Source of the DNA: Planctomycetota bacterium
GTDB taxonomy: Bacteria; Planctomycetota; UBA8108; UBA1146
DNA length: 52,462 bases
Assembly (NCBI GenBank): GCA_028825265.1
Contig: JAPKAM010000008.1
Coordinates: 1-52,462 of the forward strand
Reading direction: 5' to 3'
Made by a program: the position numbers and the translations under genes. This document shows, piece after piece, positions 1 through 5,951 of this stretch. Position 1 is the first letter of the stretch, and every line of letters starts with the position of its first letter. The notes beneath the pieces were generated by a model that saw only the letters and a list, made by a program, of their open reading frames with translations, made no database searches and was not told the DNA's origin.

Positions 1-60
1 GCACAGGCTTCTGCGGCACAGGCTTCTGCAGCACAGGCTTCTGCGGCACAGGTTTCTGGA
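1..60. repeat. 15-bp tandem repeat (gcacaggcttctgcg), 4 copies, coding for a QKPVP-type pentapeptide repeat on the minus strand
   Basis: gcacaggcttctgcg / gcacaggcttctgca / gcacaggcttctgcg / gcacaggtttctgga. Confidence 0.9.
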
Positions 61-1279
61 CGCCCGCCTGAGGCGGCCCCGTCTTCAATTCGGGCCACGG
101 CTTGGCCGAGGGAGACGGCTTGGCCGAGGGGGCAGGCTTGCTCTTTGGAGTGGGCCGTGGGGTCGCGCCACCACGAGCGGGAGTGGCTGCAAACTGTGCA
201 TACAGACGTGCGGTGACCTCTGGCATCCCCTCGAGATCGGTTTGGATCCGCAAGGTGCCTCGAATCGACCGCTCTGGTCGGCTCTGCAATACCTCGACCG
301 AGATCACGTAACGCTCCGATTCGCGAATCACCCGCTGGGTGACACCGAACACGCCCTCCGGCACATCCTCGATGGAGATGCTGGTGATATTGAACCGGGT
401 TCCGGGAGCGGTGGCAAAGACCTGGATGTCTTTCTTCACCACTGCGGCACGCGAATCGTATACGGGTGCCGAGAGTCGGTCGGTATCCTTGCGCTGGAAC
501 ACGATGTTGCCGCGGGGAACGATGGTGATCGGTGACTGGTGGTCGAGGGTCAGGGGAACGGTGGTGGTGCGGATTTCTCCGTCACTACAAACCACCTCCA
601 CAGTGACAATATCCCGGGTCATGCCGGCGACTAGCGCTGGCGGTGCAGTGAGGTGGATCTGGTACTTCTCACCCTCCACCAACTCGACGATCTGATGCAG
701 ATCGGCCTGGTTCTTGTTGACGGTCACCTCGGTGACGGTGATTCCCAACTCGGTACCCATCGAGACCTCGAACATACCGGTGAGAGTCTCTCCCACCGGA
801 CCCTTGAGGATCAGAGCATTGGGAGATGCCTTGATCACCTGGCGCAAGATGCCGTTGATGTTGAGTCGCACATTGGGCTGCCGAGGATCGTTACAACTGA
901 CGGTCGCGTACTTCCGAACCGTTTCTACTCGCAATTTTGAGGTGTCGACGCTGAGCGTGATTTCGCCCTCCCCACCGGGGAGAACTTCGCGGGTAAAGGT
1001 CCCGCGACTGCAGCCTCAGCCAGGCTTTACATTGGTGATGCGAAGTACCGACGAACCGGTATTCCGGAACTTGTAACTGTGCACCACTTTGGTGCCCTGT
1101 AAAACGGTGCCCCAGTCATGGGATATCTGGTCGAAGGAGATTCGTGGACCCGCCTCTGCCGGGGGAGGGGGAGGACCGAGGTCATCATCTCCCAGTTGAA
1201 AGGCGGACAGCGGAAAGCCCACGGCTAAGGCCAGGAAGACTCCGAGGATTGCATTTTTCACCAGTTCTCTGCCTCTCAT
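1..1279 (-). CDS. DUF1573-domain exported protein, candidate selenoprotein (in-frame UGA at 1018-1016); 3' end runs off the window
   Basis: ORF 1016..1279 begins with a signal peptide (MRGRELVKNAILGVFLALAVGFPLSAF) and ends '...VVHSYKFRNTGSSVLRITNVKPG*'. The same frame stays open from 1015 to position 1 and continues 'GCSRGTFTREVLPGGEGEITLSVDTSKLRVETVRKYATVSCNDPRQPNVRLNINGIL...', the expected DUF1573 continuation. TGA replaces the first Cys of the CGC motif. Confidence 0.85.
97..132. repeat. 18-bp tandem duplication in the Pro/Lys-rich tail of the DUF1573 protein
   Basis: acggcttggccgagggag / acggcttggccgaggggg. Confidence 0.85.
987..1007 (-). promoter_or_regulatory. Candidate bacterial SECIS hairpin just downstream of the DUF1573 UGA
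   Basis: On the coding strand: UGA-GGCUGCAG-[UCGCGGG-ACCUUUA-CCCGCGA]; perfect 7-bp stem, 7-nt loop, stem begins 9 nt after UGA. Confidence 0.4.
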
Positions 1280-2824: not shown

Positions 2825-3820
2825 ATGTTAAAGAGAATCATGACTCGTAGTGGGGGGCTGGCGATCGCCATCCTCTTGCTTGCGAGTATCCAAGTTGAGG
2901 CAGGTTCTGAGGTGGGGGATACAGCTCCGGCCTTGAACGCAGGGGGTTGGATCAACATCGATGCCAACACCTCTTGGGATTCCCTTCAGGGGAAGTTGAT
3001 CCTGATCGAGAAATGGGCCACTTGGTGAGGACCTTGCAAGGGCCAGATTCCGCACTTGAACCAATTCCACAAGGAGTTCAAGGATCGCGGCCTGGTCGTC
3101 ATCGGGGTCACCGATGAACCGGAAAGCAAGGCGAAACCCTACATCGATCGTAACAAGATGCTGTATCCCATCGCCTACGGTGGTGGGGCCAGCGGGTACA
3201 AGACTCGCGGGATTCCTCACTCCTGGTTAGTGGGTCCGGGCGGAAAGATCGTCTGGAAGGGCCATCCCGGAGGACTCAACGCGTCCATCATCGAGAAACA
3301 CATCGAAGGTGCCCGCGTCGGTCCGAAGATCAGCCTTCCCCCGCAACTGGTGAAGTCCGAGAAGTACCTCAAGGCCGGTCAGTTTGGTCGGGCCTACACC
3401 GATCTGGAGAAGCAGGCGGGTCGGGCCAAGGATCCAGAAATCGAGAAGGCGGCTCGTGACGCGATGAAAAAGATCGCTGAGTTTGCGTCCGTTGAACTGG
3501 CCCGAGTGGCCCAGTTCAAGAAAGAGCAGAAGTACTCGGCGGGCTTGCAGGCACTCCAGCGTGGTTCCGTCTCCTTCAAGGGAATGGCGATTGCCAAGGA
3601 GTTCACCAAGGAACTGAAGGCGTGGAAGAAGGATAAGTCCATCCAGGCGGAGATGGCTGGAGGCCAGTTACTCGTCGATGCCCAGGATCTGGTCAAACGA
3701 GGCAAGTACGAAAAAGCGGCCAAGATCTATGCGACCCTGGTCAAAAGCAAGAAGTACGCCGGTTCGTCAGCCCAGAAGGAAGCGGAAATTCGCCTCCAGG
3801 AGATCAAGAAGTACCTCTAG
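2825..3820 (+). CDS. Exported TlpA/thioredoxin-like protein, candidate selenoprotein (in-frame UGA at 3026-3028, UGPC motif)
   Basis: ORF 2825..3028 'MLKRIMTRSGGLAIAILLLASIQVEAGSEVGDTAPALNAGGW...LQGKLILIEKWATW*' continues in the same frame as 'GPCKGQIPHLNQFHKEFKDRGLVVIGVTDEPESK...GIPHSWLVGPGGKIVWKGHPGG', the classical TlpA/Trx fold with WCGPC replaced by W-UGA-GPC. Confidence 0.9.
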
Positions 3821-3927: not shown

Positions 3928-4920
3928 TCAGGAACTCACGCGGTCGATCAGGTCGACCACGCGGCTCGAGTATCCCCATTCATTGTCGTACCAGGAGAGG
4001 ACTTTGGCGGAGTGAGTTCCGATGGTCGTCGTCAATTGCGAGTCGAAGATCGATGAATGGGGGTTTCCGATGATGTCAGAGGACACCACTGGGTCGGTGC
4101 AGTACTGGAGTACCCCTCGCATCGGACCCTCGGCTGCCTTCTGCATCGCCGAGTTGATTTCTGCGACGGTGACCGGGTTCTCGAAGGTGGCCACGAGATC
4201 GACGATCGAACCATCGATCACCGGCACACGCATCGCCATACCGTCGAGCTTTCCCTCCAACTGGGGGAGCACTTTACCCACCGCACGGGCCGCCCCTGTC
4301 GAGGTGGGAATTACGTTCTCACCGGCAGCACGACTTCGACGAAGATCCTGGTGATACCAGTCCGCCAGACTCTGATCATTGGTATAGGCGTGAACCGTGG
4401 TCATCACTCCACGGATCAGACCAAACGTATCGTCCAGCACCTTGGCCATCGGGGCCAGGCAGTTGGTCGTGCAGGAGGCATTCGAGATGATTTGGTGTTC
4501 CGGTTCTAGAATCTCGTCGTTGACTCCCAGTACCACTAACGCATCGATGGCGTCCTTGGGAGGGACGGTCAAGATGACCTTTCTTGCACCTGCGTCGATG
4601 TGCATCTTGCACTCCTGACGCGAGCGGAATCGTCCGGTGGACTCGACGACCACATCGACTCCGAGGTCTTTCCATGGTAGTTGAGCCGGATCTTTTTCCG
4701 CCAGCATCTGGCAGCGCTGGCGTCCTGCAGAGAGGACTCCAGATTCGAGGGTGACCGGTTCAGGAAAGGGCCCCATCACCGAATCGTAGCGCAGCAAGTA
4801 GGCCAGAGATTCGGGATCGGAGATGTCATTGATGGCAACGACATCGATGTCTTCACGACCGGCTGCGATTCTAAAGACACTTCTTCCGATGCGCCCGAAT
4901 CCATTGATGGCAATCTTCAT
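3928..4920 (-). CDS. gap: Glyceraldehyde-3-phosphate dehydrogenase, type I, catalytic
   Basis: MKIAINGFGRIGR..., IISNASCTTNCLAPMAKVL, TTVHAYTNDQ, MRVPV, SWYDNEWGYSSRVVDL. Confidence 0.95.
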   Translation of the reverse strand: MKIAINGFGRIGRSVFRIAAGREDIDVVAINDISDPESLAYLLRYDSVMGPFPEPVTLESGVLSAGRQRCQMLAEKDPAQLPWKDLGVDVVVESTGRFRSRQECKMHIDAGARKVILTVPPKDAIDALVVLGVNDEILEPEHQIISNASCTTNCLAPMAKVLDDTFGLIRGVMTTVHAYTNDQSLADWYHQDLRRSRAAGENVIPTSTGAARAVGKVLPQLEGKLDGMAMRVPVIDGSIVDLVATFENPVTVAEINSAMQKAAEGPMRGVLQYCTDPVVSSDIIGNPHSSIFDSQLTTTIGTHSAKVLSWYDNEWGYSSRVVDLIDRVSS

Positions 4921-5951
4921 GAATCTCTCCTTTCGCCCTCGACAGCACTTCTGGATCCGATGCGAGCGGCAAGTTCGACGATCCTGTGGGAGATTCCGCC
5001 GCCCTGCTCGTACCAGCCGAGGACCTTGAGCAACACGCCATCGGTGACCAGGGTTGCGAGGCTATCGAAGACACAGGAGGAAGCGTTGCCTCCGATGTCG
5101 CTGGAGACGATCGGTTGATCGGTGTAGGAGAGATAGCCCTTGTGAATGCTGGCGGCTGCGCTGCGGAACACCTCGTTGACCTCGGCGGCTTCCACGGGTC
5201 TTTTCATCTGCACTGTCAGATCGGTGCAGGAGACGCCAGGAACAGGTACGTTCAACTTCATCCCCTTGAACTTCCCCCGCAGGTGAGGGAATAACTGCTC
5301 AATCGCCTCGTCGGTCCAGGTGGTCTGGGGGACGATGTTCTGCATCGCTGCGCGGGATCTTCGTAGATCTCCCCGAGCGGGAACATCGGTAAGACTCTGG
5401 TCGGCAGTGTATGCGTGTACCGAGGTGAAGGAGCCCTCTTCCACTCCGAAGGCATCGTCGAGAACCTTGACCATTAGCGCAGTGGCATTGGCGGTCGATG
5501 ATCCGCACGAGATGATCCGGTTCGATCGATCGACTTCGGAGGAGGTGACCCCCTGGATGTGCAGGTGGTCGATATCATCGGTCGGTGGAGTCGAAAGGAT
5601 GACTCGATCCGCACCCTGATCGAGATGTTTCTGCAGTTCGTGGCGTGCTCGAAACTTGCCTGTGGCTTCAACCACGACATCGACGCCATGTTCGTACCAG
5701 GGGATTTCGCCCGGTTCTCGGTGATGCAGCACCTGGATCTGTTTGCCACCGGCATAGATGGAATCTTCGAGGATCCGGATCGGTTCCTCAAAGGGGCCCC
5801 GCAGGGAATCGAATCTGAGCAAGTATTCCATCGCGTGGGTTTCCGCCAACTCGTTAATGGCGACGATCTCGATGTCCTTGCGGCCATACACCGCTCGAAA
5901 CACATTTCGACCGATTCGACCGAATCCCATCAGTCCAACTCGAACACTCAT
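4917..5951 (-). CDS. GAPDH-like protein lacking the catalytic Cys (probable pseudoenzyme or altered function)
   Basis: MSVRVGLMGFGRIGRNVFRAV... but RIISCGSSTANATALMVKVL in place of SNASCTTNC; stop overlaps the gap start codon (ATGA). Confidence 0.85.
   Translation of the reverse strand: MSVRVGLMGFGRIGRNVFRAVYGRKDIEIVAINELAETHAMEYLLRFDSLRGPFEEPIRILEDSIYAGGKQIQVLHHREPGEIPWYEHGVDVVVEATGKFRARHELQKHLDQGADRVILSTPPTDDIDHLHIQGVTSSEVDRSNRIISCGSSTANATALMVKVLDDAFGVEEGSFTSVHAYTADQSLTDVPARGDLRRSRAAMQNIVPQTTWTDEAIEQLFPHLRGKFKGMKLNVPVPGVSCTDLTVQMKRPVEAAEVNEVFRSAAASIHKGYLSYTDQPIVSSDIGGNASSCVFDSLATLVTDGVLLKVLGWYEQGGGISHRIVELAARIGSRSAVEGERRDS

Follow-up and report, generated by a model that had tools for sequence, protein, structure and literature searches.

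A DUF1573 gene at one end of a planctomycete contig carries an in-frame UGA where its adjacent paralogue encodes the first cysteine of a Cys-Gly-Cys (CGC) motif. This raises the question of whether the codon is read as selenocysteine (Sec) and whether the gene stands for a new selenoprotein family. The window analysed here, 52,462 nucleotides in length, is the entire contig (C100) of a draft genome of 2.98 Mb in 200 contigs that is 90% complete. The gene lies on the minus strand (positions 2-1279) and is cut by the contig end, which is also the window edge. Its frame starts with an ATG at 1279, contains a single in-frame TGA at 1018-1016 (V-K-P-G-[TGA]-G-C-S) and continues to the contig edge, spanning 426 codons with no second stop. 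The Pfam domain PF07610 extends across the TGA (residues 47-143, E 2.2e-18) and scores 66.5 bits, compared with a gathering cut-off of 26.1. The TGA (1016-1018) occupies the first position of U-G-C, in a column that holds Cys in the paralogue and in relatives. The substitution at the CGC motif and the open frame reported in the preliminary description are thus both present. At positions 1-60 of the window, where the contig end interrupts the gene, the sequence is a repeat that encodes Q-K-P-V-(P/L), which may be the reason that the assembly breaks there.

The N-terminus of the encoded protein, judged by eye, resembles a signal peptide (MRGRELVKNAILGVFLALAVGFPLSA). An AlphaFold2 model of the protein (mean pLDDT 89, pTM 0.69) consists of a row of beta-sandwich domains, in which the U-G-C position falls in a loop joining two strands of the first, immunoglobulin (Ig)-like domain. 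Foldseek and sequence profiles agree in relating it to Ig domains of the HYDIN/ASH-like type and to 2qsv, an uncharacterised protein from Porphyromonas. From the signal-peptide-like N-terminus and the modelled fold, the product would be an exported Ig-like protein.

The gene is followed by a DUF1573 paralogue on the same strand (open reading frame 1445-2806; PF07610, E 1.6e-15), the true start of which probably lies within this frame. As initially described, the paralogue has Cys at the column of the TGA: it reads TGT-GGC-TGT (STCGCTST), with the first TGT at 2281-2279. Next to it, a divergent TlpA/ResA-like thioredoxin gene (2825-3820, plus strand) has a TGA of its own at 3026-3028 (WATW-U-GPC), and the UxxC motif is retained in 13 of the 14 family genomes with a matched gene. 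This neighbour is of the same kind as the UxxC TlpA/redoxin selenoproteins tabulated in reviews, but clears no curated NCBIfam selenoprotein cut-off. Further along, a GAPDH-like gene (3928-4920) terminates in TGA as a normal stop. This gene and a second, different GAPDH-like gene (4917-5951, minus strand) adjoin one another with a 4-base overlap. A codon-usage scan of the window for extra genes with UGA read-through missed the known ones and was dropped.

The UGA is a shared feature of the lineage. In a DUF1573 search of the host genome and 58 relatives, copies with exactly one TGA were found in 15 of 16 family genomes (host included) and in one more genome of the order. With the OS_HP2 model run on 392 genomes of the phylum, the TGA copies among the matches listed came from the host's family and from the same one genome of the order. 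Most of these genes form two orthogroups, with a few TGA copies falling outside them. Orthogroup A, to which the gene described here belongs (VKPG-U-GC), spans 12 genomes and has TGA in 12/12, never TGY; orthogroup B (VNGT-U-GC), which includes a second copy in the host (C183:12327), likewise has TGA in all 12 of its genomes and never TGY. The UGA is therefore not a chance occurrence, and the TGA that had been proposed as a check, at the CGC column of DUF1573 genes in Sec-positive relatives, was found in both orthogroups. In a DUF1573 tree with the motif column masked, the 14 Cys paralogues group in a clade of their own. On this tree, the Sec label requires no fewer than two changes on branches with good support; long branches leave the exact number uncertain.

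Sec-type copies also occur outside this lineage. Bacterium KW1-S15_115 has a Cys-Cys-Sec tandem of three DUF1573 genes (L107:1-3009, plus strand), and a TlpA-like gene with CxxC lies just after the array (L107:3042-4085, plus strand). A Zixibacteria draft genome contains a DUF1573 copy with UGC (L226:3088-3375, plus strand). Both genomes contain selA.

On the 3' side of the UGA, the sequence is under purifying selection: across six pairs, the dN/dS ratio lies between 0.07 and 0.24. Immediately after the UGA, synonymous differences are depleted: over codons +1 to +18 they amount to 0.220 versus 0.456 elsewhere in orthogroup A, and to 0.116 versus 0.481 in orthogroup B (column permutation, p<=5e-5 for each). 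The dip persists in both orthogroups when invariant-amino-acid columns alone are used. By contrast, no dip is seen in the Cys paralogue that these genomes also encode (0.473 versus 0.490, p=0.37). A nucleotide signal downstream of a Sec codon would be expected to leave such a dip, and in this gene the constrained stretch of about 17 codons (965-1015, minus strand) is the probable site of a Sec insertion signal (SECIS).

Within this stretch, a consensus fold of 10 orthologues predicts two hairpins on the minus strand that are conserved within orthogroup A: hairpin 1 (988-1006; CGCGGG/CCCGCG), with its loop about 16 nt past the TGA, and hairpin 2 (965-985; CTCCCC/GGGGAG). Synonymous shuffles fold as well downstream of the UGA as the native sequence, and the mean z does not differ between Sec genes (-0.41) and Cys genes (-0.34). 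Fold energy was dropped as support for a SECIS; the hairpins drawn thus remain predicted rather than proven SECIS elements. A single consensus structure for orthogroups A and B was also rejected, as hairpin 2 alone survives in it, with little covariation.

The host encodes most of the machinery required for Sec insertion. The genes selA (E 1.9e-158) and selD (E 1.4e-104) and the tRNA-Sec form one cluster on contig C47. The tRNA scores 70 bits and is called by ARAGORN as tRNA-SeC with anticodon tca (UCA). SelB was not found in its 90% complete assembly, where model matches resemble other translation GTPases, which are universal in genomes. Sec machinery, whose absence from the host would have spoken against the preliminary description, was recovered except for SelB; each of the four congeners encodes SelB (full length in three, partial in one). 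In one of these congeners (G001), selA and selB lie about 160 kb apart on one contig, so an assembly gap would explain the missing gene. Two relatives with a TGA-containing DUF1573 gene (G005 and G009, both draft genomes) yielded no detectable selA.

Several other host genes use UGA in the same way. At least eight, a lower bound, contain one UGA each, in place of a catalytic or motif Cys: selD itself (SCAG-U-AAK), the second DUF1573 copy, the TlpA-like neighbour and five further AhpC/TlpA-type genes located outside the window (L217, L218, L220, L221 and L224). In the last five, UGA takes the place of the catalytic Cys (as in FTPG-U-TAQC and FWGDW-U-GPC), and thus the host genome appears to be rich in selenoproteins.

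Taken from sequence comparison, the gene is very probably a selenoprotein gene in which UGA is read as Sec, because the Sec genes of the host, the recurrence of the UGA, the purifying selection and the synonymous constraint just after the UGA all support this reading. Two other explanations of the codon can be weighed against the same evidence. If the TGA were a genuine stop, or had arisen by sequencing error or by mutation in a pseudogene, the downstream frame would not belong to one protein; the gene is known from draft assemblies alone and SelB is missing from this one, both of which speak for such an account. However, the TGA recurs in every orthologue and in a second orthogroup, a recurrence by which we consider this account already refuted, and purifying selection acts 3' of it. 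The synonymous constraint after the UGA, absent from the Cys paralogue, and the Sec genes of the host also contradict it, leaving it highly improbable. Still less credible is a genome-wide reassignment or suppression of UGA as another amino acid such as Trp, Gly or Cys. Several host genes do have in-frame UGA, which speaks for it, but UGA still stops ordinary genes such as that at 3928-4920, from which it follows that the code has not been reassigned. Moreover, the in-frame UGAs examined fall on catalytic Cys columns, and the host has tRNA-Sec(UCA), selA and selD.

The suggestion in the preliminary description that this might be an undescribed selenoprotein family does not hold, because published selenoproteome lists already include PF07610 with U-x-C. 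OS_HP2 (pfam07610, motif UxC) appears in the GOS selenoproteome table of 2008, a survey that had only two Sec sequences for it (PMC2398784). Published Sec sequences of the family include CAB1076174.1 and MDJ0815992.1. Two reviews, of 2022 and 2026, include UGC-type DUF1573 in their tables, with Zhang & Gladyshev 2007 as the source (PMC9312934, PMC13188914); the papers citing that work attribute the DUF1573 selenoprotein to the delta1 symbiont of Olavius algarvensis. DUF1573 is also named, once, in a paper about iron deficiency in Bacteroidetes. The NCBIfam model NF041425 is named "OS_HP2 family (seleno)protein". It scores the gene described here at 92.7 bits (E 1.3e-26) and the second host copy at 91.7, narrowly missing its cut-off of 100 bits; the gene is thus not counted as a strict member of NF041425, but belongs to the OS_HP2 kind with some divergence. 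Compared by domain and motif, it shows the published definition of the family, that is, pfam07610 with Sec in UxC/UGC (V-K-P-G-U-G-C). The gene is therefore a new member of DUF1573/OS_HP2, a selenoprotein family listed since 2007-2008.

With OS_HP2 (NF041425) of the Olavius symbiont and the GOS survey, the protein has in common the PF07610 domain and Sec as the first residue of U-x-C/UGC, whereas the host is a planctomycete, the protein is longer with extra beta domains, and two Sec orthogroups occur within one genome. It is alike in sequence and fold to Cys-form DUF1573 and HYDIN-VesB-CFA65-like Ig proteins (PF07610, PF22544; PDB 2qsv, Porphyromonas gingivalis), but has Sec instead of the first Cys of CGC. 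Two things are added to the known family: a conserved neighbourhood, in which the gene stands with the Cys paralogue and the divergent TlpA-like thioredoxin (UxxC), and the occurrence of Sec copies in two more lineages.

How the protein might work can be outlined from these features. SelB and Sec-tRNA(UCA) would decode the UGA, aided by a downstream mRNA signal (SECIS), and the signal peptide would export the product. In U-G-C, Sec could then pair with the second residue after it, Cys, in a reversible selenenylsulfide and so serve thiol/disulfide redox reactions of the cell envelope. The adjoining UxxC TlpA-like thioredoxin would be the likely partner, and the Cys paralogue would probably do comparable work free of selenium. 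Envelope thiol/disulfide exchange fits because an exported Ig-like scaffold with U-x-C adjoins a thioredoxin-fold gene, also in a distant genome. We infer this redox-relay step tentatively, at somewhat less than even confidence.

A selenoprotein could also use U-G-C in another manner, binding a metal or holding a structural bond and taking no part in thiol/disulfide exchange. Such a role is favoured by the Ig-like scaffold, which is not among the known redox folds; Sec is usually retained for redox catalysis, however, and a thioredoxin-fold gene adjoins DUF1573 both here and in the distant genome, so that we hold a metal-binding or structural site to be less likely than not. Returning to thiol/disulfide exchange, a broader proposal would join the Cys/Sec DUF1573 pair and the Sec TlpA-like thioredoxin into a dedicated selenium-based envelope relay, with Sec having arisen more than once in DUF1573 (in the planctomycete order, the unplaced bacterium, Zixibacteria and the Olavius symbiont). 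In this full form, the proposal is rather unlikely.

For the OS_HP2 family, these genes provide a well-replicated case of Sec that is fixed in a lineage. Ordinary gene callers would cut these DUF1573 genes at the UGA. Because Cys and Sec paralogues coexist in these genomes, they offer a built-in control, both for mapping the mRNA signal downstream of the UGA and for finding what selenium adds.
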